DNA of 64,000 nucleotides from contig NZ_KB893728.1 in NCBI RefSeq assembly GCF_000374165.1, positions 1-64,000 on the forward strand, given 5' to 3'. Shown here one piece after another: positions 4,899 through 51,058 of this stretch. The DNA comes from Parafrankia elaeagni (GTDB lineage: Bacteria > Actinomycetota > Actinomycetes > Frankiales > Frankiaceae). The translations under genes and the position numbers were made by a program. The notes under the pieces are model-generated. The model had not been told where the DNA came from. It did not search any database and saw only the letters and a program-made list of their open reading frames with translations. Each line of letters opens with the position of its first letter. Within the stretch, counting starts at the first letter, position 1.

Positions 4899-6502
4899 GC
4901 CCCTGCCGCCCTGACGGCTTCGGTGTCGTCGCCTGCCGCGATCAGCGCGCGCACCGGAGCCGCGTCGCCGGAATCCACGGCGTGCTCGATCAGCTCCCGT
5001 ACGTCGATGGTCCGGCCGTCGGGGGAGACGACCACGGTGGTCACCCATCGGCTCGCCCGCTCCCAGCCGGAGTCGACCAGCATCCTGCTGATCAGGCGGC
5101 CCAGGTAGCCAGCGAGGATCGCACGGGCGATCGCGTCGCGCCCCGGCGGTGGCTCGGCGCGGATCGACGGGTTGATGCGGCGGGCGAGGCCGCGCCAGTC
5201 CATGTCGGTTCCCGCCCGGCTTCGCCACAGGCCACCTGCAGGGGGTGCGCTCGCGGGAGGTGGACCGGACTCCAGGGCGTCGACCGCGGCGGCCAGCGCG
5301 CCCGATGCCGTGTCACGGCCCGTCACGTGCCGCAGGGTGGCAGGTGTCCCGTCGAGGGGCCCGAACAGGTCGGCCGGGTGGTTCGGCACGCGGGTAGGGA
5401 CAAGCGCGACCTGGTCGGAGCCGGCGAGCAGATTCCGCGGCGCCCACCGGTTCAGGTCGTCGGCCTGGTGAATGCCCACCGGCCTGTCGGCGGGTTCACC
5501 GGGCCCGCTCACAGGCCGGCAGCGGGCTGCCTCGGCGCGTTCGGTACGGGGCGGCGCGGCGTTGCCGATCTCAGCTCTGGGGGGAGTGGGGGCCGATGAC
5601 TCCGTCAGGGCAGCCAGCCGCGGCTGCAGCGGAAGCCGGGTCTGCGCGGCCCAGGGGTCCCTGATCTCGTCCGTCAGGATGCCCGCGAAGACCCATCGGA
5701 CGACGTGTGGATCATCGAGACTCTCGTCGAGGATGTCGTACAGGTTCTTGGGAAAAGTCCGCTGCTGGGCAAGGACCTTGGTCCCGTGCCCGCCGAGGTG
5801 GTCGAACGCTGCCGCGACCAGCGTTGCGCGGGTCAGGGCGGAGCTGACTTCGGTGGTACCGAGGACCTCGGCGGCCCGTGCGTCCGCCGCGAGCTCCACC
5901 CGCCAGCGGTATCGCTGCGTAGCGTTCAGCAGCGCAGCGGCGACGGCGCGGCGCGGGGGAAAGCGGCTGGCAAGCGCCTGCGCGACCATGCCGCGGGTGG
6001 ACGCCAGCGCTCCTTCGCGCCGGCCGGTCAGCTGATGACGGGCGATCTCCCGGGCGATGATGGCCGTGAGCTGCGCCGCGGTGAGCCCACGCAGGAGGGG
6101 CCAGCCGAGGAGCAGGCTCGGTGACCGACTGCCCAACCCCGGGTGCACCAGAGCCACCGGAGTCGGTAGAACCCGGAAGGCGAGCGGAGCGTCGAAAGCC
6201 ATCCGTTCGGCGGCCCGGCGTATCAGGACGGCCAGGTCGGGTTCATCGTCCGGTCGCAGCGCCCGGCCCGGTGGGCGTGCGCTGCGGAGAACCGGGATGA
6301 GTAGCGCAAGAAGCAGGCCGATGAACGGTGCGGCACCGAACAACCAGTCGTGAGACGCGACGGCCAGGCCGACGATGACAAGACCAAAAACGATACCGTC
6401 GATCATGAAGAAGGTCCACAGGGCGATCGCCCACAGAACGGTTGTCGGGACCGTTCCACGACTGATCCGGAGCTGCTCGACAGGCGGCGGAAGGGTGCTC
6501 AC
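4895..6502 (-). CDS. M48-like membrane protein lacking the HExxH zinc motif
   Basis: The N-terminal half looks like an M48 (HtpX/BlaR-type) peptidase: two membrane helices near residues 20-75, then a cytoplasmic domain with LLLGWPLLRGLTAAQLTAIIAREIARHQ. In active M48 proteases this last position reads AHE-x-x-H, but here it reads AREIAR, so both His ligands are Arg. The downstream RVELAADARAAEVLG segment corresponds to the E-x-x-A-D third ligand region and is retained. It is probably an inactive pseudoprotease or a scaffold. The C-terminal half is Pro/Arg-rich and carries no recognised domain. The start at GTG 6502 is chosen because it sits close to the first helix; GTG 6589 is possible. Coupled to the DUF3592 gene. 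Confidence 0.65.
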   Translation of the reverse strand: MSTLPPPVEQLRISRGTVPTTVLWAIALWTFFMIDGIVFGLVIVGLAVASHDWLFGAAPFIGLLLALLIPVLRSARPPGRALRPDDEPDLAVLIRRAAERMAFDAPLAFRVLPTPVALVHPGLGSRSPSLLLGWPLLRGLTAAQLTAIIAREIARHQLTGRREGALASTRGMVAQALASRFPPRRAVAAALLNATQRYRWRVELAADARAAEVLGTTEVSSALTRATLVAAAFDHLGGHGTKVLAQQRTFPKNLYDILDESLDDPHVVRWVFAGILTDEIRDPWAAQTRLPLQPRLAALTESSAPTPPRAEIGNAAPPRTERAEAARCRPVSGPGEPADRPVGIHQADDLNRWAPRNLLAGSDQVALVPTRVPNHPADLFGPLDGTPATLRHVTGRDTASGALAAAVDALESGPPPASAPPAGGLWRSRAGTDMDWRGLARRINPSIRAEPPPGRDAIARAILAGYLGRLISRMLVDSGWERASRWVTTVVVSPDGRTIDVRELIEHAVDSGDAAPVRALIAAGDDTEAVRAAGA

Positions 6503-11329: not shown

Positions 11330-12058
11330 GTGTCGACCACGATGGGCGATGTGGTGGCAGAAGCCGCGTTGCGGCGGACCAGAACGAGCGCTGCGGTCGT
11401 CGAGTACCTGCAGAGGGAGATCTTCGCCGGCAGCCTCCGTTACGGCGACCGCGTCGACGTCGAGCGGATCGGCACGACCCTCGGGGTGAGCCCCACCCCT
11501 GTCCGGGAGGCCCTCGTGCTCCTCGAGCGGGACGGCCTGATCGCGACCCGCGTGCACCGGGTGGCGTTCGTTCAGCACTTCGACGCCCGCACGCTGCGCG
11601 CGGACTTCCACGTCCTGGGCCTCCTGGGCGGAGTCGCGGCGGCGCGGGTGGCGAAGGACCGCGACCCCGAGATCCTCGCCCGGCTCCAGGACCTGCTCCG
11701 GGCGCTGGACGACAGCGGCGCTGACAACGCCGACAGCGCTGACAGCGGGCGCCTGCTGGACCTCGCCGCCGAGATCGTCCTGCTCCAGCACCGTGCGGGA
11801 GCCACCCCGCGCCTGCTCGCGGATCTCCGTGGAGCCGGCGGCTTCCTGGAATGGGCGGCGCGCCAGAGCGACCGCCGTGCCCCCGGGGAGATCGTCGAGG
11901 CTCAGCGGCGGGTCGTCGACGCCATCGTCGCCGGTGATCCGCGGAAGGCCTCGCGGGCCCGCCTGCAGGACACCCGCGCCGCGGCCGAGCAGGTGATAGA
12001 CGAGCTGATCCGGCGTGGGGTACTGCGCGCGGACGGCACCAACGCCGCCGCCGGCTGA
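11330..12058 (+). CDS. GntR-family transcriptional regulator
   Basis: A FadR-subfamily regulator of about 242 residues. The N-terminal winged helix reads AVVEYLQREIFAGSLRYGDRVDVERIGTTLGVSPTPVREALVLLERDGLI, a typical GntR HTH with the VSPTPVREAL recognition helix. An FCD-like all-helical ligand domain follows; it is short and lacks obvious His ligands for the usual metal. An Asp/Ser/Ala-rich insertion sits near residue 130. Its divergence from the amidohydrolase operon and its position before a P450 suggest local control of these catabolic genes. The start may be GTG 11330 or ATG 11342. Confidence 0.85.
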   Translation: MSTTMGDVVAEAALRRTRTSAAVVEYLQREIFAGSLRYGDRVDVERIGTTLGVSPTPVREALVLLERDGLIATRVHRVAFVQHFDARTLRADFHVLGLLGGVAAARVAKDRDPEILARLQDLLRALDDSGADNADSADSGRLLDLAAEIVLLQHRAGATPRLLADLRGAGGFLEWAARQSDRRAPGEIVEAQRRVVDAIVAGDPRKASRARLQDTRAAAEQVIDELIRRGVLRADGTNAAAG

Positions 12059-38434: not shown

Positions 38435-38890
38435 TCAGCCAGGCCGCACGGCGTCCAGCCGGGCCACCTCGGCGTCGGTGAACAGGCGGGACCGGGTAAG
38501 GAAGCGGTAACCCTCGGGCGCCTCCAGGCTGAAACCGGCGCCGCGCCCCGGGACGAGGTCGATCGTCAGGTGGGTGTGGGACCAGTACTCGAACTGGGCC
38601 GCTCCGATGTACACGGGCACACCGCCGCCTGGAATGCCGTCTCCGGCGGCCCCGTCCCCTGCTGGCTCCGCGCTGTCCGCGCTGTCCGCGCCGAGGACCC
38701 CGAGCAGGACGTCGCGGTCGCCGACGAGGAGCTCACCGCGCGGATAGCACATCGGGGACGACCCGTCGCAGCATCCGCCGGACTGGTGGATGATAAGCGG
38801 GCCGTGCTCCGCGGAGAGTCGCCGCAGCATGGCGAGCGCCGCGGGGGTGGCATCCACCCGCCGCGCCGCCGTTCTTCGCACGTCGGTCAT
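38435..38890 (-). CDS. DUF779 protein, aldehyde-dehydrogenase partner
   Basis: A 151-residue DUF779 protein. The Cys-rich motif GGCCDGSSPMC (Cys40, Cys41, Cys48) and a later HTHLTIDLVPGRG are the conserved family features and look like a metal site. An Asp/Ser/Ala/Gly-rich insertion near residues 70-90 is unlike relatives. DUF779 genes regularly follow alcohol- or acetaldehyde-oxidising ALDH genes, as here (57 bp after the ALDH stop). The molecular function is unknown; support of the ALDH by redox or metal handling is inference. Confidence 0.85.
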   Translation of the reverse strand: MTDVRRTAARRVDATPAALAMLRRLSAEHGPLIIHQSGGCCDGSSPMCYPRGELLVGDRDVLLGVLGADSADSAEPAGDGAAGDGIPGGGVPVYIGAAQFEYWSHTHLTIDLVPGRGAGFSLEAPEGYRFLTRSRLFTDAEVARLDAVRPG

Positions 38891-38947: not shown

Positions 38948-40471
38948 CTAGAAGAAGCCCATTGCCTTGGGGGAGTAACTGACGAGCAGATTCTTCGTCT
39001 GCTGGTAGTGGTCGAGCATCATCCGGTGGTTCTCCCGGCCGATGCCGGACTGCTTGTAGCCGCCGAAGGCCGCGTGCGCGGGGTAAAGGTGGTAGCAGTT
39101 CGTCCAGACGCGTCCCGCGCGGATGTCGCGGCCGGCGCGGTAGGCGGTGGTGCCGTCTCGGGTCCACACGCCGGCGCCGAGCCCGTACAGGGTGTCGTTC
39201 GCCTGGGTGATTGCGTCGGAGTAGCCGTCGAAGGAGGCCACCGAGACCACCGGGCCGAAGATCTCCTCCTGGAAGATCCGCATCCGGTTGTCGCCCTGGA
39301 AGATCGTCGGCTGGACATAGTAGCCGCCGGCCAGATCGCCACCGAGCTCGGCGCGTTCGCCGCCGAGGACGAGGCGGGCGCCCTCCTTCCGGCCGATGTC
39401 GATGTAGGAGAGGATCTTCTCCAGCTGGTCGGCGCTGGCCTGCGCGCCGACCATGGTCTCGGTGTCGAGCGGGTTGCCCTGCCGGATCGCCTTCGTGCGG
39501 ATCGCCGCCGCGTCGAGGAAGTCGTCGAAGATCTCGCGGTCGATCAGGGCACGCGACGGGCAGGTGCAGACCTCGCCCTGGTTGAGGGCGAACATCGTGA
39601 AGCCCTCCAGACACTTGTCCTGGAAGTCGTCATGCTCGGCGAGAACGTCCCGGAAGAAGATGTTCGGGCTCTTGCCGCCGAGTTCGAGGGTGACCGGGAT
39701 CAGGTTCTGGCTGGCGTACTGCATGATCAGACGTCCGGTGGTCGTCTCGCCGGTGAAGGCGATCTTCGCGATGCGCGGTGAGGAGGCGAGCGGCTTGCCC
39801 GCCTCGACGCCGAAGCCCTGCACGACGTTGAGGACACCGGGCGGCAGCAGGTCGCCGATCAGCTCCCACAGCAGGTTGATCGACGCCGGTGTCTGCTCGG
39901 CCGGCTTGAGCACGACGGCGTTGCCGGCCGCGAGGGCGGGCGCGAGCTTCCAGATCGCCATGAGCAGCGGGAAGTTCCAGGGGATGATCTGCCCGACCAC
40001 ACCGAGCGGTTCCTGGAAGTGATAGGCGACGGTGTCCGCATCGATCTCGGAGAGCGAGCCCTCCTGCGCGCGGATGGCGCCCGCGAAGTACCGGAAGTGG
40101 TCGATGGCCAGCGGGATGTCGGCGGCGAGCGTCTCGCGGACGGGCTTGCCGTTGTCCCAGGACTCGCCGACGGCGAGCAGTTCGAGGTTCGTCTCCATCC
40201 GGTCCGCGATCCTGTTGAGGATGTCGGCGCGGGCGGCGACCGAGGTCCGTCCCCAGGCCGGCGCGGCGGCGTGGGCGGCGTCGAGGGCCTTCTCCACGTC
40301 CTCCGCGGTGGAGCGGGCGATCTCGGTGAAGGGCTGGCCGGTGACCGGGCTGGTGTTCTCGAAGTACTGGCCCTTCACCGGCGCCACGTACTCGCCGCCG
40401 ATGATGTTGTCGTAGCGCGGGGCGAAACGGGTGGGGGATTCCGGCTGTCCGGGGCGGGCGTAGACGGTCAT
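38948..40471 (-). CDS. NAD-dependent aldehyde dehydrogenase (ExaC/AdhA type)
   Basis: A 507-residue ALDH. Catalytic residues are in canonical positions: Asn166 (IIPWNF), Glu263 (LELGG) and nucleophile Cys302 ([11 protein letters not shown]). The sequence belongs to the acetaldehyde/propionaldehyde dehydrogenase class that pairs with DUF779. It would oxidise the dehydratase product propionaldehyde, or 3-hydroxypropionaldehyde, to the free acid. It is not the CoA-acylating PduP type, in agreement with the separate propionyl-CoA synthetase gene. ATG 40471 follows GAAGGAG; the frame to 40600 is not needed. A GCAAC-N6-GCAAC site lies about 91 bp upstream. Confidence 0.93.
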
Positions 40472-40547
40472 GTCTCGGAACTCCTTCGGGAATCTGTTGG
40501 TTCCGGTCGGCTCCGGCCGGCTCCGGTCGACGAGCCTGTCGCGGACG

Positions 40548-41411
40548 CTAGGCCCGTGCGCGTTGCGGAAACGTTGCAGTGGCGCCGAGGTGGTCGGCAC
40601 CGGCCTGGGCGATGGTGATGTCCTGCTCGACGGTGCCGCCGCTCACCCCGATCGCACCGAGCAGGTCGCCGGCCGGCGTGAACAGCGGGATGCCGCCGCC
40701 GAAGACGACCAGGCCGCCGTTGGTCCCCTCGATGCCGTAGAGCGGACCGCCGACCGCGGCCGCCTTGCCCAGCTCGTCGGTGGTCATCCGCAGCAGCACC
40801 GCGGTGCGGGCCTTGCGGATGGCGATGTCGACGCTGGCGAGGATCGCGCCGTCCTGGCGGGCGAACGCCAGCAGGTGGCCGCCGTCGTCGGCCACGGCGA
40901 CGTTGATCGGCACTCCGATCGCGTCCGCCTTGGCCAGCGCGGTGTCGAGCAGGACGCGGGCCTGGTCGAGACTGAGACGTCCGGGCATGGCGAGGTCTCC
41001 GTTCACTGGTATGGGCAGCGCTGGGGCGGGCAGCGGCCTGAGCGGGAGCCCGACGACGATGCGGGCTGCGTTGTGGCCGAGGACGCGGGCGGCTGACGCC
41101 GGGCCGGTCAACGCCGGTGCGGCCGGCGGCAGTTTCGCGTGGTGCACGCAGATGGTTCCGCGGGCGTCGACGCCGACGCCGACATCGAGCGCGGAGGCCT
41201 GGGCAGCGGCGTAGGCCAGTGCCGCCGCCTCGCCGCCGTGAGCGCCGAGACGTCCGTGATCGTCGTGGGCCTGGTCGGTCCGGAAAGGCACGCCCTCCTC
41301 CTCCATCCCGGCCTGGATCTCCCGGATCAGCCGCGGATCCGGGAGGTCGGGATGGTGGCGGACGACCATCGTGGGCCGGTCGCGCCGAGCCCGGTCCGCG
41401 CGCGAGGCCAC
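40548..41411 (-). CDS. fusion of diol dehydratase reactivase small subunit with a PduO-C/GlcG-type domain
   Basis: A 287-residue two-domain protein. Residues about 25-124 match the small subunit of diol/glycerol dehydratase reactivase ([51 protein letters not shown]). Residues about 146-285 match the heme-binding GlcG/HbpS/PduO-C domain ([75 protein letters not shown]). The start GTG 41411 is 3 bp after the stop of the large reactivase subunit. In Pdu systems these domains occur on separate proteins (PduH and PduO), so the fusion is noteworthy. Confidence 0.82.
40562..40577 (-). promoter_or_regulatory. GCAAC-N6-GCAAC site upstream of the aldehyde dehydrogenase
   Basis: On the minus strand TGCAAC-GTTTCC-GCAAC lies about 91-106 bp before the ALDH start, inside the last codons of the fusion gene. 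It has the same element, spacing and orientation as the sites upstream of the dehydratase and the propionyl-CoA synthetase genes. Confidence 0.6.
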
Positions 41412-41414
41412 CGG

Positions 41415-43274
41415 TCAGACCCCCGCGGCCGGCACGGGGTCGCGCGCCGTCGCCGCGTGCCGGGCGACCAGCCCGGTGGCGACGGCGTTGCGCGGGCCCT
41501 CACAGCCGCGTACGTTGCCTGTCCCGCAGACGATCCCGAACTCCGCGACCGCCTCGGAGATCATGTCCGGGATCTCGAAGTCGAGGGCGGATCCGCCGAG
41601 AACTACGACGAACCCAAGCTGGCGGAGGTTGCCGCCGGGGGACACCATCTCCAGCGCCCGCAGTGCGTTGACGACGAAGACCCGGTGCTTGGCGGCCCGG
41701 CGCACCTGGCGGATCCGTTCCAGGGTGTGGCGGGTGGGGATCGGGTCCACCCCGGTGTCGGTGAGCACGACGACCCGGGCAAAGGCGTCGACGGGCAGTG
41801 GATCGGCGCGGAAGCGGACCGTGCCGTCCTCCATCCGGAGGTGGAAGAAGCTTTCGGCCTTCGCCAGCGGACATTTCTTGATCTCCTCGGCGAGGTCGAC
41901 GTTGCGCAGCCCGAGTTCGGCGTCGATCAGCCGGGTGACCAGGTCACCGGCACCCGCCAGGTGGACGGAACGGACCTCGTCTCCAGGGCTGGCGACCGCC
42001 GCGTCGGTGGACCCGCCCCCAAGGTCGAGGATCGCGATCGGACGGTCGGTACCGGGGGTGGTCAGGGCGCCGAGCACCGCCATGTCCGCTTCGACGCCGC
42101 CGATCAGCACGTCGAGGCCGAGCGCCTCCCGCAGCCGGGCGGCGAGCAGTTCCATCGGCCCTCGGCTGGTGCGCACCATCGCGGCGAGCGCGACCGCGTT
42201 CGCCAGCGCGGACTCGCCCGCCAGCGCCCCGGTCACCGGCTGCGGCGCGACGGTGTCCACGGCGAGGACGTCCTGGATGCGCACCGCGTCCGCGGGGGTC
42301 GCGGTGAGGTCGGACATGTTGTCGTGAACCCGGGCGAGCATCCCGCCGACGTGGGTGCCGGCCTCGCCGGTGGCGTCGACCAGCGGCTGGACCCGGTGTA
42401 GGGCAGCCATGATCTCCTCGGCGCCGGCGCTGATCTCGACCGTCCGCCGGGCCGTCGCGCCGATCAGGGTGAGGCGGCCGGCGGGGATCCTGCGATCGGT
42501 GATGTCTCCGGTGGGGGTGCGGATCACCACGGCGGACCGGTTGCCCACCAGGGCCCGTGCGACAGGCGCGACCATCCTGGTCTGGTCCGGGTCGAGGCCG
42601 AACACGGTCGCGATCCCGTAGGAGTTCGACAGCGTCCGGATGGTGTGCCCGGGCCGGGCGACCTCGACGGCGGCGAGCATGCCCAGCGGGATCCGGTCGA
42701 TCAGGCTGACCTCGTCGACGACCGGGATCGGGGCGTGCAGCCGGTTGGCGATCAGGTTCGCGTCGTCGGCGCACACGATGACACCGGTAACCCTGATCCC
42801 GGCCGCGGCCGCGCTGTTGATGCCCGCCGCCGCGTCGTCGAAGTCGACGCCCGCACCGACCACGCAGACAACCGGTTCAGCGGGATCGTGGCCGGTCAGG
42901 TCCGCGAGGGCGACGGTGACACCGACGCCCAGCCCGTCCCCGCCCGGCGTCCGCGGGTTGTGCCCGATCATTGTCGACTCGGTGATGATCGTCTCGGTGA
43001 TGGTGTCCATCGCCAGCCCGCTGATGACCGGAGTCGCCTCGTTGACCAGGAGTGTGGCGAGCTCCGTCCGGTCACGCCCGGCAGCGGCCAGGGCCCGGCG
43101 GACGACGTCGACGACCCCGGACACGTTCTCCGTCGTGCCCTTCACCCCGGACGTCGGCCCGAGCGCCCCGGCGAGCCAGGAGACCTCCCGCCCGTCCGCG
43201 TCGACCTCGGCGACGCACGCCTCGGTCGTCGAGTTCCCGATGTCGACGCCCACGACCAGCGTCACCGGGGCCAC
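41415..43274 (-). CDS. diol/glycerol dehydratase reactivase, large subunit
   Basis: A 619-residue DdrA/PduG-type protein of the Hsp70-actin fold. The N-terminal phosphate-1 motif is VVGVDIGNSTTEACVAEV and the second nucleotide motif IAILDLGGGSTDAAVA is near residue 410. It contains the reactivase blocks NEATPVISGLAMDTITETIITESTMIGHNP and AEEIKKCPLAKAESFFHLRMEDGTVRF. With its small subunit it uses ATP to exchange damaged cobalamin from the dehydratase. It is 10 bp downstream of the medium-subunit gene in the same operon. Confidence 0.95.
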   Translation of the reverse strand: MAPVTLVVGVDIGNSTTEACVAEVDADGREVSWLAGALGPTSGVKGTTENVSGVVDVVRRALAAAGRDRTELATLLVNEATPVISGLAMDTITETIITESTMIGHNPRTPGGDGLGVGVTVALADLTGHDPAEPVVCVVGAGVDFDDAAAGINSAAAAGIRVTGVIVCADDANLIANRLHAPIPVVDEVSLIDRIPLGMLAAVEVARPGHTIRTLSNSYGIATVFGLDPDQTRMVAPVARALVGNRSAVVIRTPTGDITDRRIPAGRLTLIGATARRTVEISAGAEEIMAALHRVQPLVDATGEAGTHVGGMLARVHDNMSDLTATPADAVRIQDVLAVDTVAPQPVTGALAGESALANAVALAAMVRTSRGPMELLAARLREALGLDVLIGGVEADMAVLGALTTPGTDRPIAILDLGGGSTDAAVASPGDEVRSVHLAGAGDLVTRLIDAELGLRNVDLAEEIKKCPLAKAESFFHLRMEDGTVRFRADPLPVDAFARVVVLTDTGVDPIPTRHTLERIRQVRRAAKHRVFVVNALRALEMVSPGGNLRQLGFVVVLGGSALDFEIPDMISEAVAEFGIVCGTGNVRGCEGPRNAVATGLVARHAATARDPVPAAGV

Positions 43275-43284
43275 ACCATCACCG

Positions 43285-43887
43285 TCATGACGCGGCCGCC
43301 AGGCGGATCAGGGCCGTCAGCTCCTCCGGGGCGGCGCCGGGGCGGACGAGGCCGGTCTCCTTGATGTGCAGCAGCGCGGCCTTCGCCTGCCAGCGCGGGC
43401 GGGCCATGTAGTCGTTGCGGGACGGAACCGGCTCCGGGGACTCGCCCTTGGCATACCGGGCGGCGTTGCGACCGACGCTGCGGAAGACCTCCAGGTCCAT
43501 CAGCGGCGCCTGCGGGAACAGCTCCAGGCTGGACAGTTTCGGCAGATCCTTCTGGTGGATCATCGTGGTGCCCCGGGACAGGACGCCGATGCCGATCCCC
43601 GATCCGGACAGCCGGGCCGCGCCGTGGCCGATGACCGCGAGGTCGGAGCTGCCGGGGAACCGGACCACCCGGGCATGCACGCCCTGCTCCTCGACGCCGG
43701 CGAGCAGCTGCCGCAGCACCTCCGCGTGCGGCACGTCGACGATCGTCCTCGTGAACAGGTCACCGAAGCCCGGCGAGAGGCCGATGACCACCTCATCGGG
43801 CCGGCGTCCCGCCGCGGCCGGGCCCCGGCTCGCCAGTTCCAGCGTGCGCCTGTCGGTACGGCGTTCGGTCGCCGTCGTGTCTGCCAT
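43285..43887 (-). CDS. B12-dependent diol/glycerol dehydratase, medium subunit
   Basis: A 200-residue medium (beta) subunit. Characteristic segments are DEVVIGLSPGFGDLFTRTIVDVPHAEVLRQLLAGVEEQGV, ARVVRFPGSSDLAVIGHGAARLSGSGIGIGVLSRGTTMIHQKDL and LSSLELFPQAPLMDLEVFRSVGRNAARYAKGESPEPVP. It is slightly shorter than the enterobacterial PduD because its N-terminal extension is short, and that extension is where the microcompartment-targeting region of PduD lies; this agrees with the lack of shell genes. The ATG at 43887 overlaps the large-subunit stop (TGATG). Confidence 0.93.
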   Translation of the reverse strand: MADTTATERRTDRRTLELASRGPAAAGRRPDEVVIGLSPGFGDLFTRTIVDVPHAEVLRQLLAGVEEQGVHARVVRFPGSSDLAVIGHGAARLSGSGIGIGVLSRGTTMIHQKDLPKLSSLELFPQAPLMDLEVFRSVGRNAARYAKGESPEPVPSRNDYMARPRWQAKAALLHIKETGLVRPGAAPEELTALIRLAAAS

Positions 43888-45635
43888 CAGCTGACTTCCT
43901 CCTCCGGGTTCTGCGCGCTGACCACGTGCCGCAGCCGCTTCATCTCCTCCCACCGGGCCCCGGTGGGGCGGTAGCCGGTGCCGGGCCCCGCGTAGTCGTT
44001 GGCGTCGTTGACCGCCGAGAGCGTCTCCAGCTCGGGGGTGAGAATCGCCGCGGTGTGCAGGAGGTCGCCGGAGACCCGGTGCCGCAGGACCCCGAGGAAC
44101 GCCTCGGCCATGTCGGGGAAGCCCGCGGCGTCCAGCCCTCTGACGATGTCAAGCCCGGTGACGCCGCGGTCCATGACTGACTGCGCGCCCTTGAGGTCCT
44201 CCAGGACGTCCCGCAGCGGCAGTTCCTTGCTGCCGTGCGCGTAGGTCACCGCCTCGATCTCCTTGTCAGTGATCGGCGGCAGGTCGAGATAGGCGAACAC
44301 ACCCTGCAGGGCCCGGGCGGCCCGGTTGCGGGCGGCGAGGATCTCCGCCTCCCCGACGTGCCGCAGTGCGCCGTCGACCTGGAGGTCGCGCTGGATGACG
44401 TTCCAGTCGTCGTAGTCCTCGGAGTCGAGGTTCGAGCCGGCGAACATGTTGTCGTAGTTCGGCACCGCGGAGTAGCCCGAGCAGATGAAGTCGGTGCCGG
44501 GCAGCAGCTGCGGGAGCAGCCGGGCGGTACGCCGCATGTCGGAGTGGGAGAACGACTGGTCGTTGCCGGAGGCGCACTCCAGGCCCACCGTGCTGGCGAT
44601 CAGGTTCTCCGCCAGCACCGCGCGGATGCCCGCCGGCACGGCGCCGGGTACGCCGATGCAGCTGATCGAGCCGTTCTGCAGGCCCTGCACACCGGCGCCC
44701 CTGGTCACCAGGATGCAGCGGATCTCCAGGTACAGCATGGACCTGCCCTCTGCGTTGCCCATCTGCACCTCGGAGCCGGTCCCCGAGGTGAACCGCATCT
44801 TGATGCCGCGGGACGCGTACGCCGAGGCGAGGAAGGTCTTCGACCAAGGGGTGTCATCCCCGTCACAGAAGACCGACTCGGTGCCGTACACGGAGATCGT
44901 CTCCGCGTAGGCGGTGATGCCGCGCATGCCGAGTTCGAGTTCGGTGGCCTCCTCCAGCGCGCACTGGGTGAGCGCGCCCGGAACCGCCGCCTGCGCGCCG
45001 ACCTGCAGCGCGATCGCCACCAGCGGGGCGTACCGCACCACCCCAAGGGTGGTCTCCAGCTCGCGGAAGCCGCGCAGCGCGCCCTCGGCGGCGTCCGCCG
45101 CGACCTGGACGGGGTTGTCCCGCGCGCTGGTGGAGTGCGCCTGGTTCGCGGGGGTGCGCCGGGCCCGCATCTTCTGCAGGGCCATCATCATCTCGACCAC
45201 GTTCATGGTCTTGACGACCTCGAGCAGCGCCGCGGGGGTCAGCCCGCGCGAGACGTCCAGCACCTCGCGCCGGGACACCTTCGGGTCCACCAGCAGGTGC
45301 GCGATCTCGACCGGGTCGAGCGCCATCGCCTTCTCGGTGGCCGTCACGTCGATGGCGTGGTCGGCGATGAACTGGTCGAGGAAGTCGAAGTCCGCGCGTT
45401 CCCGCCCGTCCATCTCCATGATGACCCCGCCCTCGACCCGCACGCTCGGGGTCGGGTCGTACGGGCTGTCCATGGCGACCATGCCGACCTCGGGCCACTC
45501 CTCGACGAAACCGTCGAGGTTCACCGGCCGGTTCTCCAGAATCTCGGTCCGGCGGGACCGTCGTGCCGGTGCCGGTGCCGACCCCGGGGCCTGTGCGCTG
45601 CGCCCGGCTCGGCTCGTGGCGTCCGTCGTGCTCAT
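43887..45635 (-). CDS. B12-dependent diol/glycerol dehydratase, large subunit
   Basis: The 582-residue catalytic (alpha) subunit. With an offset of 24 relative to Klebsiella diol dehydratase, the active-site set Gln141, His143, Glu170, Glu221, Gln296, Asp335 and Ser362 is conserved as Gln165, His167, Glu194, Glu245, Gln320, Asp359 and Ser386. It converts 1,2-propanediol to propionaldehyde or glycerol to 3-hydroxypropionaldehyde by adenosylcobalamin radical chemistry. The offset reflects an Ala/Pro/Arg-rich N-terminal extension of about 28 residues. Second in the operon, after the small-subunit gene. Confidence 0.96.
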   Translation of the reverse strand: MSTTDATSRAGRSAQAPGSAPAPARRSRRTEILENRPVNLDGFVEEWPEVGMVAMDSPYDPTPSVRVEGGVIMEMDGRERADFDFLDQFIADHAIDVTATEKAMALDPVEIAHLLVDPKVSRREVLDVSRGLTPAALLEVVKTMNVVEMMMALQKMRARRTPANQAHSTSARDNPVQVAADAAEGALRGFRELETTLGVVRYAPLVAIALQVGAQAAVPGALTQCALEEATELELGMRGITAYAETISVYGTESVFCDGDDTPWSKTFLASAYASRGIKMRFTSGTGSEVQMGNAEGRSMLYLEIRCILVTRGAGVQGLQNGSISCIGVPGAVPAGIRAVLAENLIASTVGLECASGNDQSFSHSDMRRTARLLPQLLPGTDFICSGYSAVPNYDNMFAGSNLDSEDYDDWNVIQRDLQVDGALRHVGEAEILAARNRAARALQGVFAYLDLPPITDKEIEAVTYAHGSKELPLRDVLEDLKGAQSVMDRGVTGLDIVRGLDAAGFPDMAEAFLGVLRHRVSGDLLHTAAILTPELETLSAVNDANDYAGPGTGYRPTGARWEEMKRLRHVVSAQNPEEEVS

Positions 45636-45706
45636 CTCTGAGACTCACCCTCCTGTTGGAAACCCGGAACCCGGAACTCGGATCGGCTGGCGCGTGTTGG
45701 GGGCGG

Positions 45707-46171
45707 TCAGCCCGCGAGGATGCCGCGTCGCTCGTAGACGTCGGCGGCCTCCCGGACGAGCTCGGCACACAGCGTCGCGCCGTGGTCCCGTTCGAGCCGG
45801 TCCGCGATGTCGGTCAGCTGCTCCCGGGTCGCGGCCCGCGGCCGCAGCGTGTTGTAGATCGTCAGGACGTCCTCGTCCGACAGCGAGGTGAGCTCGGCGG
45901 CCCGGCGGAAGTTCTGCGCCAGCTGCGGCAGGCCCACCTTCTCGGCGATCTGGGCCTGCAGTCGCAGCGTCGCCGGCGTGATGCGGATGTCCTCGGGGCC
46001 GATCTCACCGGCCAGCAGCGCGGACATGGTGATCTCGTCGATGCGCCTGCCGGTCGGCGTCCGGAGCAGGTCCGGGCGGTGGGCTGCCAGCGGGTAGTCC
46101 CGCCGCGGGTCCAGGTCGACGTCGACCTCCGCGTCGATTTTCGCGTCGACGTCCACTTCGACGTACGTCAT
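45707..46171 (-). CDS. B12-dependent diol/glycerol dehydratase, small subunit
   Basis: A 154-residue small (gamma) subunit. The core reads DYPLAAHRPDLLRTPTGRRIDEITMSALLAGEIGPEDIRITPATLRLQAQIAEKVGLPQLAQNFRRAAELTSLSDEDVLTIYNTLRP, typical of PduE/DhaB3. The first 25 residues are an acidic Val/Asp repeat (EVDVDAKIDAEVDVDLD). It is the first gene of the operon, whereas other dehydratase operons place it third. ATG 46171; the frame to 46321 is a shadow. Upstream are a GCAAC-N6-GCAAC site and the divergent aquaporin gene. Confidence 0.93.
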   Translation of the reverse strand: MTYVEVDVDAKIDAEVDVDLDPRRDYPLAAHRPDLLRTPTGRRIDEITMSALLAGEIGPEDIRITPATLRLQAQIAEKVGLPQLAQNFRRAAELTSLSDEDVLTIYNTLRPRAATREQLTDIADRLERDHGATLCAELVREAADVYERRGILAG

Positions 46172-46282
46172 GGGCTTCGCTCCTGCCTTCGTCACGGTGC
46201 CGCGGTGCGCTGCCCCGTGCCCTGCCTCCGTGCCTGTGTGCCGTGGGCCGCGCCGACGGTTCGAGACAGTAAGCAGCGTCAC

Positions 46283-46299
46283 GTTGCTGCGGCGTTGCA
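46283..46299 (-). promoter_or_regulatory. GCAAC-N6-GCAAC site upstream of the dehydratase operon
   Basis: On the minus strand TGCAAC-GCCGCA-GCAAC, about 112-128 bp before the small-subunit start. It also forms an inverted repeat (GCGTTGCA, 17-bp spacer, TGCAACGC at 46317-46324) with the site facing the aquaporin gene. Confidence 0.6.
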
Positions 46300-46316
46300 C
46301 CTGCCGACGTCCGGAC

Positions 46317-46333
46317 TGCAACGCGCCTGGAAC
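46317..46333 (+). promoter_or_regulatory. one-mismatch GCAAC-N6-GCAAC site upstream of the aquaporin gene
   Basis: TGCAAC-GCGCCT-GGAAC on the plus strand, 65-81 bp before the aquaporin start. Spacing and orientation equal the other three sites; the second half has G in place of C. Confidence 0.45.
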
Positions 46334-46397
46334 CCCGTCGCCCGCACAGTGACCCGCATTCCGGCACCCAGCCCGGCTCAGCGTGTGGAGGAGAAAC

Positions 46398-47465
46398 GTG
46401 ACCGAGTCCGCGCCCTTACGTGACCAACGACGCCTGGAGCGCGTCCGGGGAGGCTACGGCGACGTGCTCGCCGAGTTCTTCGGCTCCTTCCTGCTCATCG
46501 CCTTCGGGGCGGGCTGCGTCGCCATGCTGGTGGCAGGCCTGCCCGGTTCGGGACGCACCGCCGGGCCGACCGTGATCTTCCAGGCGGCGGGGGACTGGCT
46601 GCTCCCCGTCTGGGGCTGGGCGTTCGCCGTCGCCTTCGCGGTGTACCTGACCGGTGGGATCAGCGGGGCCCATCTCAACCCGGCCGTCACCCTCGCCCTG
46701 GCGGTGCGTCGGCGTTTCCCGTGGCGCAGGGTCCCGGGCTACTGGGCGGCACAGGTCGTGGGCGCCTTCGCTGGCGCGGCCCTGGTGTACGCCGTCTACA
46801 GCCCGGCGATCGCCGCGTTCGAGACCGCGGCGGACACCCCGCGCGACGGCGGAGCCGCCGTCACCTCGTTCTCGATCTTCGCAACCTTCCCGGCGGGCTA
46901 CTTCGACAGCTGGACGGGGCCCCTGCTCGACCAGGTCGTTGGAACCGCGCTGTTCGTGGCGGTGGTGTTCGGTCTCATCGATGGCCGCAACAGATCGGTG
47001 TCGGCGAAGGCCGCGCCGCTCCTGCTTGGCTTCGCCGTCGCCGCCGTCGGGATATCCTTCGGCGCGAACGCGGGGTACGCGATCAACCCGGCGCGTGACT
47101 TCGGGCCGCGGCTGTTCACCTTCTTCGCCGGCTGGGGCGAAGTGGCCCTGCCCGGCACGGTCACCAGCGGCGCCCTGGACTTCCACAACTACCTGTGGGT
47201 GCCCATCGTCGGGCCGCTCGTCGGTGCCGTGGTCGGCGCGCTGGTCTACGACTTCTTCATCGGCGACGTGCTCCACGCCCGCCAACAGCCACAGTCACAG
47301 TCACAGCTGTTGTCGGCCTCGGCCTCGGCCTCGGCGGTCAGCATCGCGTCGACGTCCGACCGACGTCCGGCCTCGGGCGAGGTCAGTCCTCGTCGGCGAG
47401 AAGCCATGCGAGCCGGGCCGCGGCGAGACTGTGCCGCGGGTCGTGAGTGGGAAGTGTCCGGGTGA
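46398..47465 (+). CDS. aquaporin/glycerol facilitator (MIP family)
   Basis: A 355-residue MIP channel with six helices. The two pore motifs are HLNPAVTLAL and INPARDFGPRLF; the Asp after the second NPA (NPARD) is the signature of glycerol-conducting aquaglyceroporins. It would admit glycerol or 1,2-propanediol, the substrates of the divergent dehydratase. The last 70 residues are a low-complexity tail (QSQSQ, SASASAS) from short DNA repeats. GTG 46398 follows GGAGGAGAAAC. The 3' end overlaps the convergent regulator gene by 83 bp. Confidence 0.92.
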   Translation: MTESAPLRDQRRLERVRGGYGDVLAEFFGSFLLIAFGAGCVAMLVAGLPGSGRTAGPTVIFQAAGDWLLPVWGWAFAVAFAVYLTGGISGAHLNPAVTLALAVRRRFPWRRVPGYWAAQVVGAFAGAALVYAVYSPAIAAFETAADTPRDGGAAVTSFSIFATFPAGYFDSWTGPLLDQVVGTALFVAVVFGLIDGRNRSVSAKAAPLLLGFAVAAVGISFGANAGYAINPARDFGPRLFTFFAGWGEVALPGTVTSGALDFHNYLWVPIVGPLVGAVVGALVYDFFIGDVLHARQQPQSQSQLLSASASASAVSIASTSDRRPASGEVSPRRREAMRAGPRRDCAAGREWEVSG

Positions 47466-48951
47466 GACGCTCGAACACCTCGATGTCGCCGCTGCCCGGC
47501 TCGCTTCGCGCGAAGGTCCACAGCGCGTCGACGTCCGGGTGGCCGAGGACCGCCGACCGCAGCGCGGCGACCAGCTGGTCGCGTTCCGCGCGGATCGCCG
47601 GTGCGTCCGAGTGGGGGAGCAGGGGCGCGTGGCCGGCGGCCACCGCCGCCCGCACGTCACCGCCGTCCAGCGCGGCTCGCATGGTCAGGAAGTCCGCCTC
47701 CACCTCGGCCCGCAGCCGGTACGGCTGGGTCGACATGATCGATTCGCCCAGCGTGGCTCGCAGCCGGTGGATCGAGGCGCGCACCGTGGTGGGATTGCCC
47801 TGGTCGCCGTAGAGCATGGTGGCGAGCTGCTCGCCGGTCAGACCGCCGGGATGGAGCGCGAGCATGGCGAGCAGCTCGGCCCGCCGCAGGGTCAGCGGCA
47901 CCTCCCGGCCGTCGAGCACCGCCGCCGGCCGCTCGTTCAAAAACGACAGCGACAGGGTGGGTCGGCGCGGGGCTGTCCGCGCCGGGTGTGCGAGCCGGAC
48001 GAGGTACCCGTCGGGCAGCGGCTCGACCCGCGCCTCGCGGCCGTCGTCCAGCCGGATCCGGTCGACGCCGGGCTCGACCGGGATCCGCCGCGGCCACCCG
48101 CCGTGTGGCTCGGCGGCGATCACCCGTCGGGACGGCGTCACCAGCGCGGCCGGCTCACCGTGCAGACCGGCGAGATGGGCCAGGTTCCGGGCTCTGATCC
48201 GTTCGTCCTGCAGCTCCATCTGGTGCCGCAGATGGCTCTCCGCCAGTTTCGCGGCGGCGTTGACCAGGGAGACGCAGGCGGGATGCAGCTCGTCCAGCAG
48301 GCCGCTGACATCGATCGTGCCGAGCACGCGCCCGGTGTCCGGGTCGTGGATGGGCGCCGCGGCGCAGGTCCAGTTGTGGTAGGTGCGCACCAGATGCTCG
48401 GCCGAGTAGATCTGCACCGGAGCGTTGATGGCCAGCGCGGTGCCCATCGCGTTGGTGCCGATGGTGTCCTCGGCCCAGCGGGCGCCCTCGCACAGCCCGA
48501 CCGGGTCGGCCCGCCGGCACAGGTCACCGGCCCCCTCGCGCCAGAGGATGGTGCCCTCGGCATCGGTGACGATCATGACGTGCCGGGAGGCGTCAGCGAT
48601 GCTGACGAGCAGGTCACGCAGCAGTGGCAGCACCGCGCGCAGCGGGTGGGCGGACCGGACGTCCACGATCTCGTCCGACCGGTAGACGATGATCGGGCTG
48701 TAGCTGTCCGGGTTGACCTGGGCGGCGAGCGAGCGGCGCCAGGATTCGGAGATGACCGATCGCGGCGCGGTGGGTAACCTCGCGTCGCCCAGCACGGCCT
48801 CGTGTAACCGCCGCAGAGCGAAGGACTGCGCCCGCGGGTCGTCCGTCGGTGTGCTGCCGGCCCCGGAGACCGTCGCGCTCCTCGCGGTCGTGGGGGCTTC
48901 CAGGGCTCTCGGGATCTTCGCGGCCGGGCCATCAGTGATGCGTGACTTCAT
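47383..48951 (-). CDS. AcoR-like GAF-domain transcriptional regulator with C-terminal winged helix
   Basis: A 522-residue regulator. The N-terminal part (VISESWRRSLAAQVNPDSYSPIIVY) and GAF domain (about residues 110-235, with the hallmark GARWAEDTIGTNAMGTALA and NWTCAAAPIHDPDTGRVLGTIDVSG) match AcoR/XylR-type activators. The AAA+ sigma-54 domain is missing; instead a winged helix at about 345-416 (LTLRRAELLAMLALHPGGLTGEQLATMLYGDQ) resembles OmpR/SARP-type DNA-binding domains. It lies between the aquaporin and the divergent propionyl-CoA synthetase gene, and is the natural candidate to bind the GCAAC sites in response to an alcohol or aldehyde. Confidence 0.88.
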   Translation of the reverse strand: MKSRITDGPAAKIPRALEAPTTARSATVSGAGSTPTDDPRAQSFALRRLHEAVLGDARLPTAPRSVISESWRRSLAAQVNPDSYSPIIVYRSDEIVDVRSAHPLRAVLPLLRDLLVSIADASRHVMIVTDAEGTILWREGAGDLCRRADPVGLCEGARWAEDTIGTNAMGTALAINAPVQIYSAEHLVRTYHNWTCAAAPIHDPDTGRVLGTIDVSGLLDELHPACVSLVNAAAKLAESHLRHQMELQDERIRARNLAHLAGLHGEPAALVTPSRRVIAAEPHGGWPRRIPVEPGVDRIRLDDGREARVEPLPDGYLVRLAHPARTAPRRPTLSLSFLNERPAAVLDGREVPLTLRRAELLAMLALHPGGLTGEQLATMLYGDQGNPTTVRASIHRLRATLGESIMSTQPYRLRAEVEADFLTMRAALDGGDVRAAVAAGHAPLLPHSDAPAIRAERDQLVAALRSAVLGHPDVDALWTFARSEPGSGDIEVFERLTRTLPTHDPRHSLAAARLAWLLADED

Positions 48952-49111
48952 GATGAACGCTCCGCGGCGGTCTTGACAGAGGCGACTCGTCGGCGCAGCC
49001 GTCACTGCGGGGTGGGCGGAGTCACAGCATGAACGGCCAGACGGGAGGTCGGCAAGCGCGCGCCGCAGCGTGGCCGGCCGGTCGCCCGCCACCGTGGGGG
49101 TGCCGTCCGCT

Positions 49112-49127
49112 GCAACGAGGATGCAAC
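49112..49127 (+). promoter_or_regulatory. GCAAC-N6-GCAAC site upstream of the propionyl-CoA synthetase gene
   Basis: TGCAAC-GAGGA-TGCAAC on the plus strand, 54-69 bp before the ATG. The other half-sites of this element also contain TGCAAC. Confidence 0.6.
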
Positions 49128-49180
49128 ATCGCGCCCACTACGGTGCGGCAGCAGGCGGCACGGAGGGGACGGGACGGTCG

Positions 49181-51058
49181 ATGGGCGCATACCGGGACGT
49201 GTACGACGCGTGGCGGAAGGATCCGTCCGACTTCTGGCTGTCTGCCGCGGCGGCGGTGACCTGGTCCCGCCCGCCGCGTGTGGGCCTGGACGACAACCGT
49301 CCGCCCGCCGCCCGCTGGTTCCCCGACGGCCGGCTGAACACCTGTCACAACGTCCTCGACCGGCATGTGGATGCCGGGCACGGGGAGCGGACCGCGCTGA
49401 TCTACGACTCGCCGGTGACAGGCGCCGCCGGGCGCCACACCTACGCCGAGCTGCGTGACGAGGTGGCGCGGTTCGCCGGCGTCCTGCGCGGGCTGGGCGT
49501 AGGGCCCGGTGACCGGGTGATGGTCTACATGTCGATGGTTCCGCAGGCCGTGATCGCGATGCTGGCCTGCGCCCGCCTCGGCGCCGTGCACACCGTGGTC
49601 TTCGGCGGGTTCGGCGCGAAGGAGCTGGCCGCCCGGATCTCCGACGCCGCCCCACGGGTGCTGGTCTGCACCTCCTGCGGTGTCGAGCCGAACCGGATCG
49701 TCGAGTACAAGCCGATCGTCGACGAGGCGATCGCGCTCGCCGCCGGCCCGCCGGACCATGTGGTGGTCCTGCAGCGCCCCCAGGCGGAGGCGGCGCTCGG
49801 CGCCCGCGACCGCGACTGGGACGAGCTGATGGCGTCGGCCGGGCCGGTGGACTGCGTCGACGTCGCCGCGACGGACCCGCTGTACGTGCTGCACACCTCC
49901 GGCACGACCGGGCGGCCCAAGGGGGTCGTGCGCGACAACGGCGGGCACGCCGTGGCGCTGGCCTGGTCGATGGCCAACATCTACGACATCGGCCCGGGCG
50001 ACGTGTGGTGGGCGGCGTCCGACATCGGATGGGTCGTCGGCCACTCCTACATCGTGTACGGCCCGCTGCTCGTGGGTGCGACGACCGTGCTCTACGAGGG
50101 CAAGCCGGTCGGGACCCCGGACGCCGGTGCCTTCTGGCGGGTGATCTCGCAGTACGGCGTCCGGGGGCTGTTCACCGCGCCGACCGCCATCCGGGCGATC
50201 CGCCGGGCCGATCCGGACGGGAACGAAGCCGTCGGCCAGGACCTGGCCGCGCTGCGGACCCTGTTCCTGGCCGGCGAGCGGCTGGACCCCAGCACCTACC
50301 GGTGGGCGACCGACACCCTGCGCGTCCCGGTCATCGACAACTGGTGGCAGACCGAGACGGGCTGGCCGGTGGCGGCGAACCCACGCGGCCTGGAACCGAT
50401 GCCGGTCCGACCGGGCTCGCCGACCGTCGCGGTCGTCGGCTACGACATCCGGATCCTCGACCCGGACGGCCGCGAGGTGCCGCCCGGCACCGAGGGGCTG
50501 ATCTGCATCCGGCTGCCCATGCCGCCCGGCACGCTGGTCACCCTGTGGGGGAACGACGACCGCTACGTCGAGTCCTACCTGTCCCGCTTCCCGGGCTTCT
50601 ACCTGACCGGCGACAGCGGGTACCTCGACGAGGACGGCTACCTGTTCGTGATGGGGCGCACCGACGACGTCATCAACGTCGCCGGGCACCGGCTGTCGAC
50701 CGGCGCGATGGAGGCGGTGCTGGCGGCGCACCCCGCGGTGGCGGAGTGCGCCGTGATCGGTGTGCGAGACGACCTGAAGGGTCAGGTGCCCTGCGGTCTG
50801 GTGGTGCTGAAGGCAGGGGCGGACACCGACCCGGAGACGCTGCGCGTGGAACTGGTCGCGGCGGTCCGCCGGGATATCGGCGCGGTGGCGGCGTTCCGCG
50901 AGGTCGCCGTCGTGGACGGCCTGCCGAAGACCCGGTCGGGGAAGATCCTGCGAGCCTCGATGCGCGCGATCGCCGAGGGCCGCAACGAACCGGTGCCGCC
51001 CACCATCGAGGACCCCGCGGCGCTGGACGCGCTGCGCCCGGTGCTGCGCCGGGCGTGA
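49181..51058 (+). CDS. prpE: propionyl-CoA synthetase (acyl-CoA ligase, PrpE type)
   Basis: A 625-residue AMP-forming ligase. The N-terminal YRDVYDAWRKDPSDFW and LNTCHNVLDRHV plus ALIYDSPVT are typical of PrpE rather than acetyl-CoA synthetase. ATP motifs are HTSGTTGRPKGV and DNWWQTETGWP, and the catalytic, acetylatable Lys lies in GLPKTRSGKILR. It turns propionate, made by the dehydratase and ALDH, into propionyl-CoA. ATG 49181 follows CGGAGGGGAC; a longer frame from 49070 covers the regulatory site and is rejected. Confidence 0.92.
   Translation: MGAYRDVYDAWRKDPSDFWLSAAAAVTWSRPPRVGLDDNRPPAARWFPDGRLNTCHNVLDRHVDAGHGERTALIYDSPVTGAAGRHTYAELRDEVARFAGVLRGLGVGPGDRVMVYMSMVPQAVIAMLACARLGAVHTVVFGGFGAKELAARISDAAPRVLVCTSCGVEPNRIVEYKPIVDEAIALAAGPPDHVVVLQRPQAEAALGARDRDWDELMASAGPVDCVDVAATDPLYVLHTSGTTGRPKGVVRDNGGHAVALAWSMANIYDIGPGDVWWAASDIGWVVGHSYIVYGPLLVGATTVLYEGKPVGTPDAGAFWRVISQYGVRGLFTAPTAIRAIRRADPDGNEAVGQDLAALRTLFLAGERLDPSTYRWATDTLRVPVIDNWWQTETGWPVAANPRGLEPMPVRPGSPTVAVVGYDIRILDPDGREVPPGTEGLICIRLPMPPGTLVTLWGNDDRYVESYLSRFPGFYLTGDSGYLDEDGYLFVMGRTDDVINVAGHRLSTGAMEAVLAAHPAVAECAVIGVRDDLKGQVPCGLVVLKAGADTDPETLRVELVAAVRRDIGAVAAFREVAVVDGLPKTRSGKILRASMRAIAEGRNEPVPPTIEDPAALDALRPVLRRA

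Follow-up and report, generated by a model that had tools for sequence, protein, structure and literature searches.

Predicted aldehyde and diol regulon of Parafrankia elaeagni: tandem GCAAC repeats as candidate operators of a DhaR-SARP-type regulator

A direct repeat upstream of diol and aldehyde genes

The stretch of DNA analyzed here, referred to as the window, comprises 64,000 nucleotides of Parafrankia elaeagni contig NZ_KB893728.1 (assembly GCF_000374165.1, positions 1 to 64,000). It contains three exact copies of the direct repeat GCAAC-N6-GCAAC, located at 40562-40577 (minus strand), 46283-46298 (minus) and 49112-49127 (plus) upstream of genes for an aldehyde dehydrogenase (ALDH), the small subunit of a diol/glycerol dehydratase and a PrpE-like propionyl-CoA synthetase, respectively. 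A fourth copy with one mismatch precedes an aquaporin gene (46318-46333, plus). These four copies had been proposed in an initial annotation of the sequence, and all of them were recovered at their positions. The distances to the start codons were 90 bp for ALDH (ATG 40471), 111 bp for the dehydratase small subunit (ATG 46171), 53 bp for PrpE (ATG 49181) and 64 bp for the aquaporin (GTG 46398), in agreement with the proposed range of 50-130 bp and the common orientation. All start codons, chosen by the analyst, are predicted, as are the -10 boxes and transcription starts. From 100 dinucleotide shuffles 0.06 exact 16-mers were expected in the window, and none of the shuffles reached three; the initial annotation had estimated about 0.12 copies. 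When one mismatch was allowed, 8 matches were observed versus 3.65 expected and 2 of 100 shuffles reached 8. Therefore, the aquaporin copy is weak on the 16-mer alone.

In each of the three exact copies, a -10-like hexamer of the form TAnnnT starts exactly 11 bp past the second GCAAC. The predicted promoter element of the ALDH gene (40545..40577, minus) accordingly reads GCAAC-N6-GCAAC-N11-TAGCGT with its -10 box at 40545-40550, and it extends into the 3' end of the open reading frame (ORF) before it. The predicted elements of the dehydratase operon (46266..46298, minus) and of the propionyl-CoA synthetase gene (49112..49144, plus) carry TACTGT at 46266-46271 and TACGGT at 49139-49144, respectively. 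The weaker predicted element of the aquaporin gene (46318..46350, plus) consists of GCAAC-N6-GGAAC followed by CACAGT at the same 11-bp spacing and stands back to back with the dehydratase element.

The sites were also scored with a matrix derived from 76 distinct sites, all from outside the family of the window organism. Among all positions on both strands the four window sites ranked 1 to 4 with 33.7, 22.5, 19.7 and 5.6 bits, and the next-best position scored -4.3 bits. The maxima in six Markov-1 random sequences of 64 kb ranged from -3.1 to 3.3. Since these maxima reach 3.3 bits, the 5.6 bits of the aquaporin site are modest on score alone. The base ahead of the first GCAAC was T in 68 of the 76 matrix sites.

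Genes of the cluster

The genes were assigned with Pfam and NCBIfam models. The ALDH gene (38948..40471, minus) matched the acetaldehyde dehydrogenase ExaC model with 939.6 bits (cut-off 900). Downstream of it lies a gene for a DUF779 protein (38435..38890, minus; Pfam), which is probably co-transcribed. The dehydratase small subunit (45707..46171, minus; Pfam, scanned from a start farther upstream) is encoded by the first gene of its operon. On the same strand follow the large subunit (43887..45635; Pfam and NCBIfam), the medium subunit (43285..43953; Pfam), the diol dehydratase reactivase alpha (41415..43274; PduG model, Pfam and NCBIfam) and an ORF in which a Dehydratase_MU domain is fused to an HbpS-like domain (40548..41411; Pfam). 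The repeats of the putative ALDH operator lie inside the final codons of this fusion ORF. The plus strand encodes a MIP-family channel, the aquaporin (46398..47465; Pfam and NCBIfam), and the PrpE-like acyl-CoA synthetase (49181..51058), whose best match was propionate--CoA ligase with 726.5 bits, under the cut-off of 955. A regulator of 522 amino acids is encoded at 47383..48951 (minus); its gene and the aquaporin ORF converge, with about 80 bp in common if the ORF is taken as called.

As judged from the protein families, the pathway would lead from the channel via a B12-dependent dehydratase and an NAD-linked aldehyde dehydrogenase to an acyl-CoA synthetase. Although the window genome has diol dehydratase genes, a search of it for the BMC shell family PF00936 gave no match; therefore, the route looks compartment-free.

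Domain structure of the regulator

The initial annotation had named this AcoR-like regulator as the obvious binding candidate. A Pfam search over the whole 522 amino acids matched GAF and Trans_reg_C only, and the same two at E<=1. No match was obtained for an AAA+ sigma54-interaction domain, a Fis-type helix-turn-helix (HTH) or a receiver domain. Trans_reg_C scored 25.4 bits in the whole protein, just under the cut-off of 26.2, and 27.6 bits in the C-terminal fragment. Of 29 C-terminal sequences, 21 likewise matched it at E<=10, the best at 3e-06. The structure model and fold comparison suggest a DhaR-like GAF sensor (residues about 64-263), a small beta-rich linker and a SARP-like winged helix with a helical domain (331-522). 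In the model comparison the C-terminal module matched the fold of the SARP activators AfsR and EmbR. A first structure model based on 10 sequences had a mean predicted local distance difference test (pLDDT) score of 63, and AfsR was not among the 50 PDB matches listed for it. An identity as AcoR-type sigma54 activator is ruled out by the Pfam result of GAF and Trans_reg_C alone, together with the SARP-like output module. Our best reading is that the regulator is a "DhaR-SARP" chimera, in which a DhaR-like sensor would be joined to a SARP-like output module.

Specificity of the extended element in the genome

The window genome (7.59 Mb, 98% complete, 135 contigs) contains 13 copies of the bare 16-mer versus 12 of the reversed pattern. 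Ten of these copies lie outside the cluster, some of them within ORFs. As a genome-wide marker, a use suggested in the initial annotation, the bare 16-mer was consequently rejected. One of the outside copies (L002) is a site-like sequence near an ORF that by eye looks like an epimerase, but no -10 box stands at the right place. The reversed 16-mer is not a neutral control, because real sites often read GCAACG-N5-GCAACG and match the reversed word too; it occurs 62 times in the 80 regulator loci described below. A fairer control is the reversed 33-mer, found 0 times in these loci and 10 times in 394 genomes.

Of the extended 33-mer, GCAAC-N6-GCAAC-N11-TANNNT, the genome contains three exact copies, all of them within the cluster. 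With one mismatch two more copies were found elsewhere, and the reversed pattern gave 2 at the same tolerance. Since the -10 spacing was first noticed on the window sites, other genomes provide the fair test of the 33-mer.

Co-occurrence of site and regulator

Among 394 genomes of one class, the exact 33-mer was present in 136, with 158 matches versus 10 for the reversed pattern. A profile built from 10 sequences was used to search the same genomes for relatives of the regulator. Regulator and site occurred together in 133 genomes at E<=1e-50, the regulator alone in 54, the site alone in 3 and neither in 204. The corresponding numbers at E<=1e-90 were 130, 22, 6 and 236; as the genomes are related to one another, p-values for these counts are nominal. 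Thus, a regulator relative accompanied the exact 33-mer in 133 of 136 genomes at the lower stringency. Distances were evaluated for 150 of the 158 matches, those listed, 140 of which come from genomes for which a regulator coordinate was listed. Among these, 102 sites were found within 300 bp of the regulator, 108 within 1 kb and 124 within 10 kb, and 16 were on another contig or more than 10 kb from the regulator match. This association strongly supports a regulon with the regulator as its candidate binder, as proposed in the initial annotation.

When one mismatch was allowed in the 54 genomes with the regulator only, the variant GAAACA-N5-GCAAC-N11-TAGnnT was noted in five genomes of one genus (G173, G255, G327, G333 and G389), about 250-430 kb from the listed regulator.

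Conservation of the element in regulator loci

The footprint within the family of the window organism covered 11 regions (L050-L060). In nine of them the 16-mer precedes the ALDH gene; eight of these (L051-L058) have a regulator gene next to it in divergent orientation. The window cluster recurs in full in L050, with all three sites kept. The 16-mer was not found in L059, where ALDH and regulator are present, and L060 contains the regulator with neither an ALDH match nor the 16-mer. Between the divergent ALDH and regulator genes of L057 (8068-8086) and L058 (8264-8282), GCAAC-N6-GCAAC can be read on both strands with an offset of 3 bp, and the -10 hexamer stands on the ALDH-facing copy only. 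Coupled autoregulation is a possible explanation of this arrangement.

A larger set was made up of the 80 top-ranking among 348 relatives of the regulator in named genomes, with 8-kb flanks; it favours proteins closely related to that of the window. The footprint sets are not wholly independent: L050 and L120 are one locus, and L162 and L175 lie in genomes also sampled as G033 and G030. The 33-mer was found in 77 of the 80 loci. Pairs of GCAAC occurred 90 times at a distance of 11 bp versus at most 17 times at any other distance. The hexamer TANNNT followed exact 16-mers at offset 11 in 84 of 90 cases, and every other offset between 0 and 30 gave at most one. The next tested gene after these 84 sites was ALDH in 57 cases, the dehydratase small subunit in 5, PrpE in 3 and another gene in 19. 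Of 58 loci with an ALDH match, all except L158 had the 33-mer in front of ALDH.

Diol dehydratase genes were found in six of the 80 loci, belonging to Parafrankia colletiae (L050), Thermocatellispora, Planotetraspora, two Sciscionella and an Actinoallomurus metagenome-assembled genome. All six hold sites, and no loss of the motif, as considered in the initial annotation for orthologous clusters, was seen. In five of them the exact 33-mer lies directly ahead of the dehydratase small subunit gene; the sixth (L144) has exact repeats with TACTGT at offset 13. In a tree of 49 rows the regulators of the six loci and of the window formed one group with a support of 100/100. Counterparts of the aquaporin element were found in L050/L120 and in L121, there with two exact repeats.

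In a further set of 29 loci chosen by their sites (L061-L089, nine from the family of the window organism), ALDH lies downstream in 20 and a Zn-alcohol dehydrogenase in 3 (L068, L069, L073). The downstream gene was not assigned in the remaining six, all of one other family. L068 and L069 showed no regulator match within the 3 kb examined. In 18 Pseudonocardia-type loci among L125-L149 the site adjoins the regulator and does not precede ALDH. The downstream ORF, which was read in nine of them, looks like a response regulator there, and the ORF at L126:7089-7808 matched Response_reg and GerE (Pfam), a LuxR-type protein. A Pfam scan of the neighbours of L140 gave no information on the pathway. 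Ten Pseudonocardia-type regulators group together beside the diol group in the tree, and these loci possibly represent a rewired regulon. In L165 (Mycolicibacter) sites were observed before both ALDH and a PrpE-like gene, at 5188-5220 (plus) and 11752-11784 (minus), and no dehydratase match was found in the 17 kb examined.

Proposed mechanism and alternative explanations

Taking together the observed sites, their spacing, their conservation and their association with the regulator gene, our best reading with regard to binding, activation, inducer and order of evolution is an actinobacterial aldehyde/diol regulon that would be activated by a "DhaR-SARP" chimera binding TGCAACGTnnn twice (probability roughly 0.8). 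The element would be the operator part of a regulated promoter, in which two 11-bp direct repeats TGCAACGTnnn replace the -35 region at a fixed distance from the -10 box TAnnnT. The regulator encoded in the cluster would sense its signal via the DhaR-like GAF domain at its N terminus. Two SARP-like modules from the C-terminal part would then occupy the neighbouring repeats and, in the manner of AfsR, bring in RNA polymerase, so that otherwise weak promoters are activated when an aldehyde or its precursor, the presumed inducer, is present. Four transcription units would be switched on, namely the dehydratase operon, ALDH-DUF779, PrpE and the channel, and their products would serve diol uptake, dehydration, aldehyde oxidation and activation of the acid. 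If TAnnnT is set at -12 to -7, as we assume, the repeat pair falls at -40 to -19, the register of AfsR. Because this register matches the AfsR box, a DhaR-like sensor with SARP output is proposed to act as an activator. ALDH is probably the ancestral target, and the diol genes would have joined the regulon later, in one clade of the regulator.

Several results weigh against this proposal. The regulator occurs without the exact 33-mer in the 54 genomes mentioned above, and a one-mismatch search in these genomes was weak overall, with only eight clear neighbouring variants, about 2 kb or less from the listed regulator (G060, G143, G352, G229, G056, G149, G234 and G385). Moreover, many equally good copies elsewhere, which the initial annotation had held to speak against a regulon, were in part found for the 16-mer; for the 33-mer they were not.

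The same protein and sites could also serve repression, the occupied repeats blocking the polymerase until an aldehyde releases the protein. A repressor could likewise act on the -35 and spacer region that the repeats cover, but the output module has the fold of the activator AfsR, and the fixed -10 spacing with repeats in the -35 place would fit an activator-dependent promoter, as judged from the consensus. Repression is consequently unlikely. It is very unlikely that another transcription factor binds the repeats and that the GAF protein is associated with them merely through shared operons. The GAF protein is connected to the sites by co-occurrence and neighbourhood only, and 16 of 140 listed sites are remote from it; however, the regulator is missing in only 3 of 136 site-bearing genomes, and the same family of sites and regulators serves ALDH, Zn-alcohol dehydrogenase and the LuxR-type response regulator.

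A GCAAC-like word at a set distance from a TA-containing -10 box is reminiscent of a promoter of an extracytoplasmic function (ECF) sigma factor, with one GCAAC as -35. Recognition by such an alternative sigma factor is nevertheless highly improbable, as GCAAC occurs in pairs spaced 11 bp apart and the presence of the site follows that of the gene for the GAF regulator; no search aimed at sigma-factor genes was made. The 13 genomic copies of the bare 16-mer might point to a chance cluster of a short word, but the 33-mer count in the genome, the spacing in the 80 loci and the matrix ranks argue against it and the class-wide scan contradicts it, leaving this explanation a negligible probability.

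In a wider sense, these data point with good but not full confidence to a widespread actinobacterial regulator class, in which the sensor half of DhaR/AcoR would be joined to a SARP-type module replacing the sigma54 output and would act on a near-invariant 33-bp core promoter. It would serve aldehyde catabolism or detoxification, with lineage-specific rewiring to diol dehydratase, alcohol dehydrogenases and a response regulator. One sequence rule then predicts regulator, operator, promoter and targets together across many actinobacterial families. The rule concerns ExaC-type ALDH handling reactive aldehydes and suggests a route by which a sensor known from sigma54 activators works through an ordinary promoter. 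Parts for aldehyde or diol biosensors may be derived from it.

Comparison with known systems

The individual parts, namely SARP operators, DhaR sensors and dehydrogenases of the ExaC type, are already known; in the open-licence literature searched, partly among the matches listed, no description of their combination as one widespread circuit was found. The window regulator shares the N-terminal GAF-type sensor with E. coli DhaR (4lrx/4lrz). It differs from DhaR/AcoR in that neither an AAA+ sigma54-activation domain nor a Fis-type HTH was matched and its candidate DNA site is a promoter-proximal repeat. In operators of the Pho-box/OmpR type, winged-helix domains likewise recognize 11-bp direct repeats in tandem, whereas the window regulator has a GAF sensor and no receiver domain was matched.

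MYCCH_RS28740 of Mycolicibacterium chubuense NBB4 is described as "AcoR; CadC1 HTH domain" and as putative regulator of monooxygenase genes in a review which states that experimental evidence is absent (PMC8784404). By this description, it apparently has the same sensor and winged-helix make-up; in the available part of the review, neither an operator nor a SARP link is given for it.

The closest parallels are found with SARPs. SARP targets contain direct repeats 11 or 22 bp apart, and about 8 bp separate the 3' repeat from the -10 box (PMC10936776). Two 11-bp repeats make up the box of the AfsR promoter, which covers -40 to -19 and overlaps the -35 region with its upstream repeat; on this box two SARP protomers lie side by side and contact sigma region 4 (PMC10936776). 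The sites described here share with them the two 11-bp direct repeats over -35 that end near -10, with 9 bp between the 8-mer TGCAACGT and TAnnnT in 84 of 90 exact pairs, and the modelled winged helix and helical domain of the window regulator resemble AfsR and EmbR in fold. In these two proteins the DNA-binding and activation module is N-terminal of the extra domains (same source), whereas the matching module of the window regulator is C-terminal behind the GAF sensor (331-522 of 522). Further differences are the repeat word, which is TGCAACGT at the window-type sites, and the predicted targets, which are catabolic genes.
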